7,896 nt of DNA from Deltaproteobacteria bacterium RIFOXYA12_FULL_61_11 (lineage in GTDB: Bacteria; Bdellovibrionota_F; JAHFAK01; YA12-FULL-61-11): NCBI GenBank assembly GCA_001799195.1, contig MGSU01000078.1:1-7896 (forward strand), read 5' to 3'. The translations under genes and the position numbers were made by a program. Each line of letters begins with the position of its first letter. The stretch's first letter is position 1. Shown here one piece after another: positions 131 to 7,544 of this stretch. Below the pieces are notes generated by a model. It saw only the letters and a list, made by a program, of their open reading frames with translations. It was not told where the DNA came from and ran no database searches.

Positions 131-1990
131 ATGTCGGAGTGCGGTCTTGAACAAAGAAACCCGTCGGTTACCCTGGTATTGTTGCCGATGTGGGATACCA
201 GCATGCCGCCGCTGTCTCTCGCCTGTCTTTCCTGGTACTTGCGCCGACACAGTGTTTCGGTTACGGTACTCGATGCCAACATCGACCTCTTTCAGGGGGT
301 GTCGGCCGAACAACGCACCTTGTGGGACATGGCCAAGCTCGGATTTTGGATCGACGGTCGCGAGAAATTCCCGGGCGTCGTGCTACGAGCCTTGGAGAAC
401 CTGCTCGATCCTCTCGTCGAACGCATTCTTGCCTCCCCAGGTGCCTGGTTGGGCTTCTCGGTGACTAAGAGCAATGCCTTGTTCACGCGCGAGGTACTGC
501 TCCGCCTGCTCCCGCTCAAGGGAACGCGCAAGGTGGTGCTCGGGGGACATCACTGCGGTCACCCCGCGTACCGAGCCCTCTTCGACGACCTCCCGCTCGA
601 TCACATCGTGGTCGGTGAGGGAGAACAGGCACTGCTCGATCTGATTCGAGGTCAACGGAGCGAGCGGTTGCTCCTGGCCGGCGAGGATCTGGACCCTGAG
701 GCCCTGGGCCTCCCGGACTTCGCCGGGTTTGACCTCGACCGCTATACCAGCCGTACCCTTCCGGTCTGGTTCGGCAGAGGGTGTGTCTATCGCTGCGCCT
801 TCTGCGAGGATTCTACGCTCGCGGGGCGCTACCGCGGGAGGGATCCTGCCGGCTTGGCCGCGGACCTGGAGAGGCTCGTATCCGCCACCGGCAGAACTGA
901 CCTCCTCTTTGTCGATCTCCTGCTCAATGCCCATTCGGAGCGCTTGGCCGAACTGTGCCGGGCGATCCTCGATCGAGGGTTGGTGTTGCATTGGCACGGG
1001 TTGTTGGTGATCGACCGGCGCGACGGTCAGGATTTCTATGACTTGCTCGCAGCGGCAGGCTGTCATACCGTTGCCTTTGGCGTGGAACACGGGTCGGAGC
1101 GCGTCTTGCGTCGGATGCGCAAGCGATTCCATGCCGAGGACGTGCCGGTGGTTCTCGGCAGGGCCAGGAAGGCCGGTCTGCACACCGCGATCAACCTGAT
1201 CGTCGGTTTCCCCGGCGAGAGCGAGGAAGATTTCGAAGAGTTGCTCGACTTCCTGCGCCGGCACCACGGGGGTATTTCCTCCATCGGCAGCCTGAATACC
1301 TATACGCTGCTGGTCGGTACCCAGGTCGAGCGAAAGATGGCCGAGTGGGGCATCGAAGCGCCCGAGGGCTGGCAACCCTCGACCCAGTTCTGGTGGGACG
1401 GCGATACGATCTTCGAAGAGCGCGATCGGCGCATGCAGCGGCTGAGCGTCCTGCTCGAGGAGTTGGGCTTGGCCTATTACAGCTCCACGGTGGACGTGGT
1501 CGACCGGCAGTTCCGGGCTCACCCCGAGGACCACGAACGCGGCGAGGACTACCTCCGCGTGCGCGCCGTGGACTTCTTCCAGGGCAACCTCAATCGCTGG
1601 GATCGTACCTTCGGCGGTCTGGTCCTGGACAACGGAGTATATCCGAACGTGGTGAGGTACAAAGTCAGGCCGCTCCGGCAGGGCACCTACGAATGGTGGC
1701 TCGGGATGGCCGCCGATGAGCCGAGGACTCTGGAATGCTGGGTGGGGGATTGCCTGCTCCTCACCATGACCCCGCGTTCGACCGGGGGGATGTTCGACAC
1801 CAACGTGGCGTGGTTCCGTTGCGGCACCTTCGAGTTGCCCTTGACCGGAGCCATCCTCACGCTGCGCGCTCGAGGCATGGTTCCCCACCTCCATGGTCTT
1901 TACCTGCGCAAGGTGTCCCCCGCTCATGGACCTCAAGATCCCCCTGCCGTGGGAGAGCGCCCCGGACTCAACCCGAGGTCGGAACGGTGA
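131..1990 (+). CDS. B12-binding-type radical SAM protein with extra C-terminal beta-rich domain
   Basis: This 619-residue cytoplasmic protein is a radical SAM enzyme of the cobalamin-binding-domain class. Residues about 12-170 look like the Rossmann-type B12-binding domain, with hydrophobic strands, VVLGGHHCGHP near 135-145 and VGEGEQALLDLI at 161-172. The canonical DxHxxG cobalamin ligand motif is absent, as is usual in this class. The iron-sulfur cluster motif CxxxCxxC is C218, C222 and C225. Further class signatures are FGVEHGSERVLRRMRK (316-331) and INLIVGFPGESEEDFEELL (354-372). Residues about 495-593 form a Trp- and Gly-rich, probably beta-sandwich extension not expected in the core fold. 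The start at 131 follows AGGAGG; ATG at 128 is a possible alternative. The stop overlaps the GTG start of the next gene. The substrate cannot be read from the sequence. Members of this class perform methylations, ring contractions or other radical chemistry, and some no longer use cobalamin. Confidence 0.9.
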   Translation: MSECGLEQRNPSVTLVLLPMWDTSMPPLSLACLSWYLRRHSVSVTVLDANIDLFQGVSAEQRTLWDMAKLGFWIDGREKFPGVVLRALENLLDPLVERILASPGAWLGFSVTKSNALFTREVLLRLLPLKGTRKVVLGGHHCGHPAYRALFDDLPLDHIVVGEGEQALLDLIRGQRSERLLLAGEDLDPEALGLPDFAGFDLDRYTSRTLPVWFGRGCVYRCAFCEDSTLAGRYRGRDPAGLAADLERLVSATGRTDLLFVDLLLNAHSERLAELCRAILDRGLVLHWHGLLVIDRRDGQDFYDLLAAAGCHTVAFGVEHGSERVLRRMRKRFHAEDVPVVLGRARKAGLHTAINLIVGFPGESEEDFEELLDFLRRHHGGISSIGSLNTYTLLVGTQVERKMAEWGIEAPEGWQPSTQFWWDGDTIFEERDRRMQRLSVLLEELGLAYYSSTVDVVDRQFRAHPEDHERGEDYLRVRAVDFFQGNLNRWDRTFGGLVLDNGVYPNVVRYKVRPLRQGTYEWWLGMAADEPRTLECWVGDCLLLTMTPRSTGGMFDTNVAWFRCGTFELPLTGAILTLRARGMVPHLHGLYLRKVSPAHGPQDPPAVGERPGLNPRSER

Positions 1991-2469
1991 GGAAGCTCGT
2001 TGCACCTCCCCTGGACGAGTCGGGTTTGTACCAGGAGGCGATGGAGGGGTACACCTGGAGGCATCACCCCCTGGTCGAACGGCCATGGACTGCTGCTGTC
2101 ATCGTCCCGTTCCTCGCCGCCGGGGCAATGGGGGCAGGGCTCCTGCTCGGACATCTGCTCCTGTCCGTGCCGGTTGGTATCGTCCTGCTGCTCTCCCTGC
2201 GCCGATACTTCCTGCCGACCGAATACCGGCTCGATCCCGATGGGGTTACGGTCCGGCATCTCGGAGCGACAACGCACGTGTCTTGGCCCAACCTGAAGCG
2301 GTATTCCCTCGAGCCTCACGGCATTTTCCTGAGCCCCTTCGAGGAACCTTCGCGTCTCGAGAATTTCCGCGGCATCTTTCTCCTGACCGGGGAGCACAGG
2401 GAAGCGGTGGCCGCGTGGCTGGCCAAGCACTGGACCAAGGGTACACCTCACGGCGAGGGGGTGCTGTGA
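1987..2469 (+). CDS. Small membrane protein with PH-like C-terminal domain
   Basis: This is a predicted 160-residue protein. Residues about 35-71 are strongly hydrophobic and read as two closely spaced transmembrane helices (PWTAAVIVPFLAAGAMGAGLL, then a second one ending SLRRYF), so the hairpin probably leaves both ends in the cytoplasm. After it, residues 74-147 (YRLDPDGVTVRHLG, then VSWPNLKRYSL, ending in helix HREAVAAWLAKHW) resemble the bacterial PH-like domains that follow a two-helix hairpin. The GTG start at 1987 overlaps the upstream TGA (GTGA) and has GAGG eight bases before it. An ATG at 2041 with AGGAGG two bases before it is a possible alternative that would drop the first 18 residues and keep the helices. 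Function is unknown. It could anchor its operon partners at the membrane, which is inference. Confidence 0.75.
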   Translation: MRKLVAPPLDESGLYQEAMEGYTWRHHPLVERPWTAAVIVPFLAAGAMGAGLLLGHLLLSVPVGIVLLLSLRRYFLPTEYRLDPDGVTVRHLGATTHVSWPNLKRYSLEPHGIFLSPFEEPSRLENFRGIFLLTGEHREAVAAWLAKHWTKGTPHGEGVL

Positions 2470-2801
2470 GTTGGTGGAAGCGCGCTTTTTCCCTCGCCCG
2501 CCCGCAAGAAGACGCCGCGCCCGAGAAAACGGAGCGGGTATTCCTCGAACGTTTGGCAGCCAAGGTTGAAGCCAGGGGATTGACCACGGTGACCGTGCTG
2601 TTCCTGGAATCGTTCCGGCCCCTTGCCTTCTTGGGCAGCCAACTGCTGGTCTTCCTCGAACCCATGGTCAAGGCCCTGGTCAACCTCGAGGAGTATGATC
2701 ACTTCGTCCATCTGGTCGAGCGGCCGGCCCATCTCGCCTATTTCCTCCGCCGCCTCGAACGACCCTCACCCGCAGAAGACGAGAAAAACCATGAACAATG
2801 A
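2466..2801 (+). CDS. Small helical protein of unknown function, between membrane protein and MutL
   Basis: This is a predicted 111-residue protein with no enzyme motif. A charged N-terminus (to about 27) is followed by a largely helical core, residues 28-97. The core includes a hydrophobic stretch around TVTVLFLESFRPLAFLGSQL (41-60) and FLEPMVKALVNLEEYDHF (63-80). The FLES-P-F-GSQ pattern looks like a conserved signature rather than random translation. From memory, similar short proteins occur beside MutL-like genes in other bacteria, but I cannot verify this here. The GTG start at 2466 overlaps the preceding TGA in a GTGA junction, and its end overlaps the start of the MutL gene by 11 bases, so its translation should be coupled on both sides. 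The hydrophobic stretch is broken by Glu, Arg and Pro, so a peripheral membrane or protein-protein interface role fits better than a true transmembrane helix. No specific function is assigned. Confidence 0.75.
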   Translation: MSWWKRAFSLARPQEDAAPEKTERVFLERLAAKVEARGLTTVTVLFLESFRPLAFLGSQLLVFLEPMVKALVNLEEYDHFVHLVERPAHLAYFLRRLERPSPAEDEKNHEQ

Positions 2802-4608
2802 ACCTACTGTCAAGGTGATACTCGCCACGGATTGCGGCAGCACCACCACCAAGGCCATTCTCATCGAGAAGGTCGGGCAGGAATACCGGCAGACGTATCG
2901 CGGCGAGGCTCCCACCACGGTCGAGGCGCCCTTCGAGGACGTTACCATGGGGGTGCTTAACGCGGTCCAGGAGGTCGCCGAAATCTCAGGTCGGCGGCTC
3001 GTCGGTGACGACGGACGGATTATGACCCCTGCCCGAGGAAAGGAGGGCTGCGACCTCTATATCAGCACCTCCAGTGCCGGAGGAGGATTGCAGATGATGG
3101 TCGCAGGGGTGGTGCGGAGCATGACCGCGGAGAGCGCCGAACGGGCCGCCCTGGGGGCTGGATCCATCGTCATGGACGTCATCGCCTGTAACGACAAACG
3201 ATTGCCGCATGAACAGATCGAACGCATCCGCCAACTCAGACCGGACATGATCCTGGTGTCGGGCGGCGTGGACGGCGGCACGACCAAACACGTGGTGGAG
3301 TTGGCAGAGCTTATCGCGGCGGCCTCGCCCAAGCCGCGCCTCGGCAGCGGGTTCCACCTGCCGGTCATTTATGCGGGTAATGCCCAGGCCGCGGATGAGG
3401 TCGCTACCGTGTTGGCGGACAAGACCGATCTGAACGTGGTCCCCAACCTCCGACCGGTGCTCGAACGCGAGAATCTTGGACCGGCCCGCGAAAAGATCCA
3501 TGACATGTTCCTGGAGCACGTCATGCAACAAGCTCCGGGCTACAAGAAGCTGATGTCCTGGGTCAACGCGGATATCATGCCGACGCCCGAAGCCGTCGGC
3601 CGCATTTTGCGTACCATCGCGGAGAAAGAAGGCATCAACGCGGTGTGTGTGGATATCGGTGGTGCTACCACGGACATCTTTTCGGTCTTCGGCGGGGAGT
3701 TCAATAGGACGGTCAGCGCCAATCTGGGGATGAGCTATTCCATCTCCAACGTCTTCACCGAAGCCGGGCTTCCCAATGTCCTGCGCTGGGTGCCCTTCCC
3801 CATGGACGAGCGCGACCTGCGCAATCGGGTCAAGAATAAGATGATAAGGCCGACCACCATTCCCAGCAGCTTGGAGGAGTTGGTCTTCGAACAGGCTATT
3901 GCCAGAGAGGCCCTGCGGTTGGCCTTCGAGCAGCATAAGGCCTTCGCCAGCAGGCTCAAGGGAGTGCAGCAACAGCGCACCATCGGCGACACCTTCGATC
4001 AAGGGGCCGGCGGCGAGAGTCTGGTGAACCTCATGGATCTCGACCTGCTCGTCGCCTCCGGGGGGGTGTTGTCCCACGCTCCGCGTATGGCGCAGACCGC
4101 GCTACTGTTGATCGATTCCTTCTTGCCCGAGGGGGTGACCGCCCTGGCCAAGGACAGCATCTTCATGATGCCCCATCTCGGGGTGCTTTCCCAGGTGCAT
4201 CCGGCTGCTGCCACCGAGGTCTTCGAGAAGGATTGCCTCATCTACCTCGGCACCTGCGTCGCGCCGGTTGGCAAGGCCAAGGAAGGTTCGCGGCTGTTGC
4301 ACTGGCGCTTCGAGACCGAGACCGGCCGCGTGGAGGAGGGTGAATTGCACCAGGGAGAGCTCGCGCGAGTGCCCCTGGCGCTCCAGGAGAGGGCTCACTT
4401 CTCAGGTCATCCCGAGAAGGGAATTGACCTCGGCAGGGGCAAGGGCACGAAGGTCGAAACCGTACTCAAGGGAGGAGAAGTCGGACTGGTGCTCGACGGC
4501 CGTGGCAGACCCCTTGTACTGCCCGCGGACCAAGGACGGCGGGTGGAGTGTCTGCATCGGTGGCTCAAAGCGATGGACGCTTACGATGCTCGGTTGTACA
4601 CGTTGTAA
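2791..4608 (+). CDS. MutL/GlmL-family actin-fold ATPase (glutamate mutase L-like)
   Basis: This 605-residue protein has the ASKHA (actin/Hsp70-like) ATPase signature of the glutamate mutase L family. The phosphate-1 loop is ATDCGSTTTK (12-21), phosphate-2 is VDIGGATTD (287-295), and the adenosine motif is SGGVLSHAP (423-431). VSGGVDGGTTKHVVELAEL (156-174) and YAGNAQAADEV (194-204) are also typical. Characterised relatives accompany adenosylcobalamin-dependent glutamate or ornithine mutases and are thought to reactivate them by ATP-driven cofactor exchange. No mutase gene is present here. The protein is longer than the roughly 460 residues I recall for clostridial MutL. The extra part is mainly a tail after about residue 485, with the motif GLVLDGRGRPLVLP at 565-578. 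The start at 2791 is inside the preceding gene, with only a weak purine-rich ribosome site, so coupled translation is likely. An in-frame GTG at 2815 lacks any ribosome site. The name MutL here is unrelated to the mismatch-repair protein. Confidence 0.9.
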   Translation: MNNEPTVKVILATDCGSTTTKAILIEKVGQEYRQTYRGEAPTTVEAPFEDVTMGVLNAVQEVAEISGRRLVGDDGRIMTPARGKEGCDLYISTSSAGGGLQMMVAGVVRSMTAESAERAALGAGSIVMDVIACNDKRLPHEQIERIRQLRPDMILVSGGVDGGTTKHVVELAELIAAASPKPRLGSGFHLPVIYAGNAQAADEVATVLADKTDLNVVPNLRPVLERENLGPAREKIHDMFLEHVMQQAPGYKKLMSWVNADIMPTPEAVGRILRTIAEKEGINAVCVDIGGATTDIFSVFGGEFNRTVSANLGMSYSISNVFTEAGLPNVLRWVPFPMDERDLRNRVKNKMIRPTTIPSSLEELVFEQAIAREALRLAFEQHKAFASRLKGVQQQRTIGDTFDQGAGGESLVNLMDLDLLVASGGVLSHAPRMAQTALLLIDSFLPEGVTALAKDSIFMMPHLGVLSQVHPAAATEVFEKDCLIYLGTCVAPVGKAKEGSRLLHWRFETETGRVEEGELHQGELARVPLALQERAHFSGHPEKGIDLGRGKGTKVETVLKGGEVGLVLDGRGRPLVLPADQGRRVECLHRWLKAMDAYDARLYTL

Positions 4609-4632
4609 ATAGGTGCGGTAGCTCTTGTCTGT

Positions 4633-4636
4633 GAGG
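4633..4636 (+). promoter_or_regulatory. Ribosome binding site GAGG before the KOW-domain protein
   Basis: GAGG lies seven bases before the ATG at 4644 and supports that start. It sits in the 35-base gap after the MutL gene, in which no terminator or separate promoter is visible. Confidence 0.65.
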
Positions 4637-4643
4637 TAGTTCG

Positions 4644-5765
4644 ATGGGGAGTTCGTTCGTTCCAGGTCTGAAAGTCTCCCGGCACACGGTACTCCGGAAG
4701 CGCCGTATCCTACCGCTCAAGGGGGAGGTGAAGAAGAATCTCGGGGATGAGGTCGCTGCCAGCGAGGTCGTCGCCGAAACATATCTTCCCGGCAAGGTCC
4801 ACCCGATGAACGTGGCCAACCTGCTCGGGGTTGTACCCGCCGATCTGCCGCGTTGCATGGTGCGTAAGGAAGGCGAGGCCGTGCAGCGCAATGAGGTCCT
4901 CGCCCGATCCACGTCCTTCTTCGGTTTGTTCAAGAACGAGGTGACGGCAAAGGTCGAGGGAACCCTCGAGAATGTTTCGACCATCACCGGCCAAGTCATG
5001 GTGAGGGAAAAACCCACTCCGGTACAGGTTCGAGCGTTCGTCGACGGGACCGTGGTCGAGATAATCCCCCAAGAGGGTGTGGTGCTGGAGACCACGGCCA
5101 CCTACATCCAGGGTATTTTCGGTATCGGCGGCGAAACCCAGGGGCGCATCACCGTGTTGGTCGAGGCACCGGGAGAAGAACTCACCGCCGAGTCGATCAG
5201 GTCCGAGCACGCGGGGCAGGTCCTGGTCGGGGGAGCCTTCGCTTCGCTCGCCGCCTTGCGCAAGGCCGTCGAGGTCGGTGCCGCGGGAGTCGTGGTCGGG
5301 GGAATCGATGCCCTGGATCTGGTCGAGTTCATGGGGTACGACCTCGGTGTGGCCATTACTGGCTCAGAACGCTTGGGGCTGACCTTGATCGTGACCGAGG
5401 GTTTTGGGCACGTCGCTATGGCCGAGCGAACGTTTTCCCTCCTGACCGAGTTGAGCGGCAGCGAGGCCAGTATCAATGGCTCGACCCAGATCAGGGCCGG
5501 AGTCATCCGGCCGGAGATCATTGTCACCCGGGCGAGGGAGCAGAGGGAGGCTCCTCCCGGGGATGAGCTAAAAGGCCTCGAGGTCGGGGACCTCGTCCGC
5601 ATTATCCGCCAACCGCACTTCGGTGAGCTCGGCACGGTCACGAGTTTGCCGCACGAATTATCCACTCTGGAATCCGAATCCCGAGCCCGCGTCCTCGAGG
5701 TCACCTTGGCCACAGGGCAGATCCTGCGCCTGCCCCGGGCGAACACCGAGGTCATCGCCGGCTGA
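4644..5765 (+). CDS. Barrel-sandwich-like and KOW-motif protein, MutL operon partner
   Basis: This is a predicted 373-residue cytoplasmic protein with no signal peptide or membrane helix. Residues about 22-155 look like a barrel-sandwich hybrid (RnfC or biotinyl-like fold). They contain two copies of a G-x-x-V-x-x-x-E-V-[VL]-A motif (34-44 and 77-87) and a return strand DGTVVEIIPQEGVVLET (134-150). There is no biotin or lipoyl lysine motif. Residues about 175-295 are a Gly/Val-rich alpha/beta region (GQVLVGGAFASLAALRKAVE, AAGVVVGGIDALDLVEFMGY) that I cannot assign. Residues 311-336 (GLEVGDLVRIIRQPHFGELG and following) form a KOW-type SH3-like beta barrel of the kind found in ribosomal and NusG proteins, closed by a strand pair near 349-371. 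The gene follows MutL by 35 bases, so it is probably the last gene of the operon. A scaffold or binding role for the MutL module is inferred; no catalytic residues are recognised. Confidence 0.8.
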   Translation: MGSSFVPGLKVSRHTVLRKRRILPLKGEVKKNLGDEVAASEVVAETYLPGKVHPMNVANLLGVVPADLPRCMVRKEGEAVQRNEVLARSTSFFGLFKNEVTAKVEGTLENVSTITGQVMVREKPTPVQVRAFVDGTVVEIIPQEGVVLETTATYIQGIFGIGGETQGRITVLVEAPGEELTAESIRSEHAGQVLVGGAFASLAALRKAVEVGAAGVVVGGIDALDLVEFMGYDLGVAITGSERLGLTLIVTEGFGHVAMAERTFSLLTELSGSEASINGSTQIRAGVIRPEIIVTRAREQREAPPGDELKGLEVGDLVRIIRQPHFGELGTVTSLPHELSTLESESRARVLEVTLATGQILRLPRANTEVIAG

Positions 5766-5790: not shown

Positions 5791-6660
5791 TTATTGGAGC
5801 TGCTGTACGAGCTCGTCGGCTGCGCGGAAGACCTCTTCGGTAACGAAGCGGACCTTGAGCTTGAATTGCAGCTCCTCGAGTTCTGAACGCAAGGTGAGAT
5901 CACTCGGATCGTAGGTTGCGAGGGTCCCGGTCTCATGACAGGTGGTCATATCGTTGACGAGACGCAACACGCGTAATTCTTTCGTATAAGGGCCTTGGTA
6001 TCCCTCGCGGTGATGGTGCCCGATGCAGTCGATGAAGAGTTGGGGCAGGTTCCAGCGCGCCATGGCCCAGGCTCCGATGTCCTCATGGGTCAGCCCCAGG
6101 ACGTCGAATTCGAACTCGGGCAGGTCTAGGTTCAGCTTGCGGTCGAAGTGCTTGACGACTCGTTGGTAGAGCTCCGGGAAGTAGAAGTCCAAGATCAGGA
6201 TACCCACGTCGTGGAGCAGGCCCAAGGTATAGAGATCACGGCCGGCGCGGCGGTCGAGCTTCTCCTCGTACAAGATCTCATAGGCGCGCGCGCAGGTGCC
6301 GGCCACGATCATCGAGTGTTTCCAGAAGTCGGCGAATACGGCTCCGGTGCCGAACCCCTTGAAGGAGTGCAGGGCGGAGAAGGAGAGTGCGATGCGTTCG
6401 AATTCGTGCAGACCCAGCCGGACGATCGCTTCTTCGAGATTGCCGATGGCCGCTCTCGATGGTCCTCGATAATAGGCGGAGTTGACCAATTTGAGGACAT
6501 TGGTGGTCAGGGCAACATCTCGCTCGGCGAGGGCGACGATCTCGGGCAGCTCGCGGTTCTCGTCAAGGGCCTTGGCCAGGGCGAAGACCGTATCCGGCAA
6601 TACGGGAAAGGATTGGATGGTGCCGAGTTTCTTGAGGATGAAATTCTTGCGCAGGACCAT
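5791..6660 (-). CDS. HDOD domain protein, second of a tandem pair
   Basis: This 289-residue protein is almost entirely an HDOD domain, a relative of the HD phosphohydrolase fold widely found in bacterial signalling. Typical parts are FPVLPDTVFALAKAL (18-32), LTTNVLKLVNSAYY (51-64) and AIVRLGLHEFERIAL (78-92). All positions of an HD-type metal site seem filled: H115 (FWKHSM), H150-D151 (LLHDVG), H192 (THED), H215-H217 and D237 (VND). The lysine following HD-x-G in HD-GYP enzymes is Ile here, and no GYP motif is present, so phosphodiesterase activity is not implied. Most HDOD proteins are thought to work as protein-interaction modules in signalling, motility or stress responses. Its ATG overlaps the stop codon of the upstream paralogue by one base (TGATG), with GAGG eight bases ahead. 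It ends 25 bases from the convergent operon. Confidence 0.9.
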   Translation of the reverse strand: MVLRKNFILKKLGTIQSFPVLPDTVFALAKALDENRELPEIVALAERDVALTTNVLKLVNSAYYRGPSRAAIGNLEEAIVRLGLHEFERIALSFSALHSFKGFGTGAVFADFWKHSMIVAGTCARAYEILYEEKLDRRAGRDLYTLGLLHDVGILILDFYFPELYQRVVKHFDRKLNLDLPEFEFDVLGLTHEDIGAWAMARWNLPQLFIDCIGHHHREGYQGPYTKELRVLRLVNDMTTCHETGTLATYDPSDLTLRSELEELQFKLKVRFVTEEVFRAADELVQQLQ

Positions 6661-7544
6661 CAGAGGATCCTCATGATGGCCTGGGAGCGATCGACATCGG
6701 CCTGGAAGTTGGACAAAATATCTTGGTAGAGATCGCTTTTCTCGACCAGCTTGTTCTTGATCTCCTCGTGCCGTTTGTCCTGGTGATCGTCGCGGTTGTT
6801 GTTGATGCTGCCGATGCCCTGTAGGGTGCAGATTTCATTTGCAATTTTTACTACTCGAACAATCGGTTCATATTTACCGGTGTAGTCCTTGATGTTGTGG
6901 TGGTAGCGAATTGCAGCGCGGAGGTGTTCGGGTAATTGCCAGCGCAAGGCGATGATCTCTCCCACCTCCTCGTGGGTGATCTCGAGCATCTCTTGCTCGA
7001 GTTCGATGATCTTGGGAGCGTTGGGACTGCGGGCTGCAAGCAGGACTTTCTCGTAGTAGTCGGGAAAATAATGATCGAGGATGAGGATGCCGATGTCGTG
7101 GAGCAAGGCGGCGCTGTAAAGTTCGCCGGAGACCTTCTTCCCCAGTTTTTTTGCCGAGATCTTGGCAAAGGCTTCCAGGGTGATGAACGCCGTCGTCAAA
7201 CAGTGTTGCCAGAAGTGTTGATAATCCAGTTTGTTGGAGAAAGAACCGAAGGTCTCGATGACACTCAGGGAGATGACGATCTTCTTGAACTCCACGGTCC
7301 CGAGGCGGACCACCCCGGTCTCGACATCGGTGACCTCCTTGCCGAGGGATTGGTAGACGGGAGAATTGACGATCTTCAGCACTTTTGCGGACAACGCAAT
7401 GTCCAGCTTCGCCAGGACGGCTATCTTCTCGATGTCGGCGTCGGAATCGATGGCCTGGATGATTTCGTTGTAGACATTGCTGATGGTCGGGAGATCGTTG
7501 ATCCGTTCGAGGGATTTCAGAATCAACTTTCGGCGTGAGACCAT
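6660..7544 (-). CDS. HDOD domain protein, first of a tandem pair
   Basis: This 294-residue HDOD protein is clearly paralogous to the next gene over nearly its full length. Shared landmarks include LILKSLERINDLPTISNVYN (7-26), LSAKVLKIVNSPVY (51-64) and LLHDIGILILDHYFPDYYEK (147-166). Metal-type residues H114, H149-D150, H191 and H215-H216 are present, but the last aspartate position is Glu (ANEI, 235-238), so the site may be incomplete. The C-terminal tail (about 245-294) is very polar, rich in Asn, Asp, Lys and Glu, and probably helical. Codon and residue choice looks more AT-leaning (many Ile, Lys and Asn) than the neighbours, for example around 6830-6900. The ATG at 7544 has AGGCGG six bases upstream. 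It is the first gene of a two-gene minus-strand operon and diverges from the cytochrome gene. Confidence 0.9.
   Translation of the reverse strand: MVSRRKLILKSLERINDLPTISNVYNEIIQAIDSDADIEKIAVLAKLDIALSAKVLKIVNSPVYQSLGKEVTDVETGVVRLGTVEFKKIVISLSVIETFGSFSNKLDYQHFWQHCLTTAFITLEAFAKISAKKLGKKVSGELYSAALLHDIGILILDHYFPDYYEKVLLAARSPNAPKIIELEQEMLEITHEEVGEIIALRWQLPEHLRAAIRYHHNIKDYTGKYEPIVRVVKIANEICTLQGIGSINNNRDDHQDKRHEEIKNKLVEKSDLYQDILSNFQADVDRSQAIMRIL

Follow-up and report, generated by a model that had tools for sequence, protein, structure and literature searches.

What does a complete gene for a MutL-type ATPase do where no mutase gene adjoins it? The locus that raises this question lies in a stretch of 7,896 nucleotides (the window; contig MGSU01000078.1, assembly GCA_001799195.1) from Deltaproteobacteria bacterium RIFOXYA12_FULL_61_11. 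A preliminary description of it had proposed a unit of five genes chained by overlapping starts, in which MutL either services a radical SAM enzyme or its cobalamin or drives a membrane-associated modification system. All five of the open reading frames named there are present as described, and we refer to the last four as genes A to D:

131-1990, plus strand: radical SAM gene (P0001), Pfam Radical_SAM at E 9.7e-20; a local neighbor outside the conserved system
1987-2469, plus strand: gene A (P0002), predicted membrane protein with a PH-like C-terminal part
2466-2801, plus strand: gene B (P0003), small helical protein with no Pfam match
2791-4608, plus strand: gene C (P0004), long MutL, predicted ASKHA ATPase of 605 aa, Pfam PF13941 at E 1.6e-127
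4644-5765, plus strand: gene D (P0005), predicted adaptor with a C-terminal KOW domain, sub-threshold Pfam KOW match

Across 131-5765, the first four frames overlap by 4, 4, and 11 nt, so that the chain of overlapping starts is real as far as gene C; the KOW gene departs from it, starting 35 nt downstream of gene C. Gene A has a hydrophobic segment and a weak match to bPH_6 (16.5 bits against the 22-bit Pfam cut-off). A scan for promoters and terminators gave no signal exceeding that in shuffled sequence.

Two conserved blocks of genes

We scanned for relatives of gene C and retrieved 80 loci; separately, we searched 116 whole genomes, 24 of which carry a long MutL, the genome of the window included. 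The neighbors of C in Planctomycetota, Acidobacteriota, Neomarinimicrobiota, Zixibacteria, and Verrucomicrobia include homologs of A, B, and D. In profile searches, A lies directly upstream of B in every locus that has A (52/52), B, with homologs in 97 loci, directly precedes MutL in 76/77, and D follows C in 75/80, several of the exceptions being contig ends. The conserved unit is A-B-C-D, without the radical SAM gene.

Most of the 80 loci also carry four further genes, E-F-G-H, downstream of D in fixed order (D then E in 69/75 loci, E then F in 64/70, F then G in 61/64, and G then H in 61/61). Gene E is a full member of DUF6754 (PF20539), a family that Pfam lists as a domain of unknown function, and is built of an external fibronectin-III part, a membrane segment, the DUF6754 domain, and a second membrane segment. 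Gene F has about six membrane segments, gene G carries a domain between two membrane segments, and gene H is polytopic. The block is intact in the genome of the window, where it lies near rpoB/rpoC on contig C332 (L112:9091-13099, minus strand):

L112 13099-11363, minus strand: gene E, DUF6754 at E 7e-114
L112 11343-10651, minus strand: gene F
L112 10647-9748, minus strand: gene G
L112 9744-9091, minus strand: gene H

The A-D and E-H blocks also stand apart in many other genomes. In two Schlesneria loci (L101 and L105), B and C have no D-H in the vicinity and are succeeded by other conserved genes; these loci may represent a reduced variant.

In the structure predicted for one E homolog (from locus L079), a fibronectin-III domain is clearly recognizable (Z 12.8) and is accompanied by a membrane helix and a DUF6754 domain of alpha/beta type; fibronectin folds took up the list of structural matches. 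From the charges flanking the membrane segments, DUF6754 is predicted to be cytosolic and the G domain external. Among solved structures, sequence searches found relatives for the fibronectin domains of E only and chance-level matches for G; a resemblance of G to cobalamin adenosyltransferase (E 0.46) is also at chance level and was discarded. Profile comparison of E with G gave no homology (2.5% probability).

We further measured the co-occurrence of the two blocks in 386 genomes, related ones among them, of which 94 carry a long MutL. DUF6754 is present in 92 of these 94 genomes vs. 10 of the 292 others (Fisher's test, p 1.6e-74, a value that ignores shared ancestry), and five of the 10 genomes having DUF6754 without a strong long MutL have a divergent MutL. 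The order A-B-C-D-E-F-G-H is kept in relatives across several phyla, and copies that depart from it interleave the blocks: E-H sits between B and C at L169, where D completes an unbroken series; A-B directly precedes E-F-G-H at L192; and genome G060 has B-E-F at one place and G-H-C at another. In addition, C is fused to most of D in three MutL paralogs (875-1033 aa as stop-to-stop frames). These rearranged and fused copies lend independent support to one eight-part system. With both blocks also present in the genome of the window (A-D in the window and E-H at L112:9091-13099), we consider it very probable, and well supported by genomics, that A-D and E-H form one functional system. The five-gene unit proposed earlier must be redrawn accordingly: the radical SAM gene is not conserved with the other four, and four further genes appear to belong. 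Of the two functions guessed in the preliminary description, the membrane-associated one survives, since MutL is tied to a membrane system.

No recurring extra neighbor that would name a substrate was convincing. E-H blocks with no detectable long MutL occur in genomes G008, G058, and G077 (loci L179, L180, L185, and L187). The fused MutL-D paralogs (L196 in G115:C8, L197 in G081:C51, and L198 in G106:C110) occur in genomes that also have a long MutL of the normal kind, and that of L196 has an N-terminal stretch resembling a helix-turn-helix domain.

The copy numbers of the two blocks differ. At least two DUF6754 genes are found in 47 of the 92 genomes with both genes and at least three in 24, the range extending up to six, while the unfused long MutL is nearly always single (two copies in G180 and G313). 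Tandem E-H copies occur at L053, L152, L160, L171, L172, L173, and L176. When E paralogs within a genome are compared, median identity is 33% for the outer part and 62% for the cytosolic part, and the ectodomain is the less conserved of the two in all 17 pairs compared (17/17). Co-resident copies are 37% identical for G, whose domain is predicted to lie outside, 47% for F, and 48% for H. This pattern, in which the inner face is kept and the outer face has diversified, agrees with a single A-D unit that works on several E-H units, and on balance we favor such a shared-energizer layout, in which the E-H units would differ in their outer parts. ECF-type and other shared-energizer transporters likewise combine one cytosolic ATPase unit with several membrane units of divergent outer parts. 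ABC and ECF-type transporters use an ABC ATPase, whereas none is found among the parts of this system (no Pfam match in A-H, with E-H scanned as the L079 homologs), and transport by A-H is putative.

The ATPase and its predicted adaptor

Gene C matches PF13941 over profile positions 1-450 with 426.5 bits (cut-off 27), and T13-K21, V287-D295, and S423-P431 are nearly all invariant among 31 sequences. We take these segments to be the phosphate-1, phosphate-2, and adenosine-type motifs of ASKHA ATPases. Judged by its sequence, gene C is a MutL-branch ASKHA ATPase, predicted to bind and hydrolyze ATP; the earlier statement that the gene is complete with intact ATPase motifs agrees with this match to PF13941. 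Mean column identity reaches 75% over the 31 sequences, most of which are cross-phylum. Sequence searches returned no solved-structure relatives of gene C.

Gene D was modeled with AlphaFold2 (mean pLDDT 86.6). In the predicted structure, residues 129-301 resemble the swiveling domains of RraA (Z 9.3, rmsd 4.2 over 129 aligned residues) and rifampin phosphotransferase (Z 9.1), and residues 308-373 resemble the KOW domain of NusG (Z 8.8, rmsd 2.4); these Z values only slightly exceed the tool's middling level for unrelated folds, and the HMM match also supports the KOW assignment. The N-terminal part has weak matches to RnfC_N and biotinyl-lipoyl models. Gene D is predicted from its model to be a multidomain adaptor, with a barrel-sandwich-like N terminus, a swiveling middle, and a C-terminal KOW domain. 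The RraA-type swiveling fold and the NusG/Spt5 KOW fold are both predicted in D, a combination that none of the matches showed; by sequence, solved structures gave chance-level matches only. Phosphohistidine swivels have an invariant histidine, whereas no invariant or nearly invariant histidine is found in D over 39 sequences, and phosphohistidine chemistry is therefore unlikely.

Proposed mechanism and the chaperone alternative

The best explanation of these data, and in our judgment probably the right one, is that A-D and E-H make up an eight-part membrane system energized by the MutL ATPase. In such a system, A (membrane-bound and PH-like) and B would bring the ATPase C and its adaptor D to the membrane. 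There C would open and close, driven by ATP, and D would relay this cycle to DUF6754 on the cytosolic side of E, from where it would reach the E-F-G-H unit. The output would most likely be ATP-driven transport or remodeling of an external or membrane substrate; transport in particular is a tentative choice, and one we would not bet on. More speculatively still, the system may be an ATP-driven membrane machine of a new class: a MutL-type ASKHA ATPase would act on DUF6754 through a barrel-sandwich/swivel/KOW adaptor and power interchangeable membrane units that differ in their outer domains, and the motor behind transport or remodeling would be unrelated to ABC ATPases.

The long MutL might instead act as a chaperone or reactivase, the role ascribed to GlmL-type proteins, and assemble, load, or repair the E-H complex, which would itself work without ATP-driven cycling. 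Gene C belongs to the same Pfam family as the mutase accessory proteins, a single long MutL for several membrane units would suit a helper, and DUF6754 occurs in 10 genomes without a strong long MutL. We nevertheless regard a chaperone role as unlikely, though it is the most serious alternative, because most relatives carry A-D and E-H as one ordered series and others interleave the two, an arrangement more in keeping with a permanent part than with a helper called on from time to time.

The eight-gene bacterial system is apparently undescribed so far: a corpus of 5.39 million open-access papers yielded none that describes it or DUF6754. No Pfam family reaches its cut-off in four of the parts, and another part is a DUF. 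An important role is likely, since the eight-gene set is kept in several phyla and MutL identity is 75%. Planctomycetes with genetics make the system directly testable; per-gene essentiality for Planctopirus limnophila is covered by PMC10632474.

Mutases and radical SAM enzymes as candidate partners

GlmL and Or-4, the accessory MutL proteins that go with glutamate mutase and with ornithine degradation, share with gene C the PF13941 domain over the first ~480 residues and the layout of the ATPase motifs. Unlike them, gene C is ~600 aa long with a conserved C-terminal extension, and it has membrane partners and no glutamate mutase. It scores 229 bits with the GlmL equivalog NF040745 (cut-off 475), 212 bits with the Or-4 equivalog NF040744 (cut-off 600), and 173.9 bits with glmL_fam TIGR01319 (cut-off 204.05), falling short of all three. 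The short MutL proteins of genomes G078 and G107, which adjoin glutamate mutase E, have GlmL scores of 584 and 554. In a tree marked by long branches and an unsettled bootstrap, five short MutL proteins split from the rest with support of 100/99. By scores and tree, the long MutL is a separate branch of the MutL family.

Genome content agrees with this separation. Glutamate mutase E (PF06368) exceeds its cut-off in 0/24 long-MutL genomes and does so only in G078 and G107, both with a short MutL. In the genome of the window, its best match (18.5 bits vs. the 26.6 cut-off) falls inside a methylmalonyl-CoA mutase gene, and PF09043, the lysine/ornithine-type aminomutase family, is absent; Lys-AminoMut_A is found in one of the 24 long-MutL genomes (G090). 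On scores, tree, and genome content together, we rejected the long MutL as a glutamate or ornithine mutase partner, which bears out the earlier view of a MutL without such a partner. Many annotations in the style of "glutamate mutase L" change meaning as a result, the long branch not being a mutase partner.

The broader claim that there is no mutase is correct for the neighborhood and too strong for the genome, which has two genes of methylmalonyl-CoA-mutase type. The long MutL could on that account be an accessory protein of such a mutase encoded elsewhere, but we consider this very improbable and rejected it as a candidate: the family has no match in 7/24 long-MutL genomes (G005, G013, G035, G040, G090, G104, and G106), and no such mutase is recognized beside the block. 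Methylmalonyl-CoA-type mutases, moreover, have a G-protein partner of their own.

P0001 contains the CxxxCxxC motif (as GCVYRCAFC). Its match to the B12-binding family PF02310 is below the Pfam cut-off (28.2 vs. 32.1 bits), as are its best NCBIfam models among the matches listed. P0001-like genes (E <= 1e-30) are present in 4/116 genomes, away from MutL, and the genome of the window has eight, seven of them outside the window on contigs C21, C151, C276, C11, C33, C290, and C115. This distribution marks a locally expanded family and suggests a lineage-specific expansion. The idea that MutL and its neighbors work for the radical SAM enzyme or its cobalamin, which the 4-nt overlap of the radical SAM stop with the next start favors in the window, is the least probable of all, because no P0001 relative adjoins MutL in any other locus among the neighborhoods of C relatives, P0001-like genes occur in so few genomes against the 24 with a long MutL, and seven of the eight copies in its own genome lie elsewhere. 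On neighborhoods and genome distribution, we rejected the radical SAM gene as a module member: of the five genes first grouped together, it alone is rarely a neighbor elsewhere, and the other four keep together.

Long arrays of similar enzymes were seen in other sequences. At G036:C110:13273-19284 (the L202 region), four radical SAM units of ~450 aa stand in a row in one open frame of 2449 aa, each 32-34% identical to P0001, and a 2018-aa frame on C119 contains more P0001-like units.

On the far side of gene D, two adjacent HDOD-domain genes (window 5791-7544, minus strand), which overlap each other by one base, are convergent with the MutL operon. Downstream of them, at L113:7713-10249, inspection by eye found two open frames rich in CxxCH heme-binding motifs, as in multiheme cytochromes, followed by FHA-like genes.
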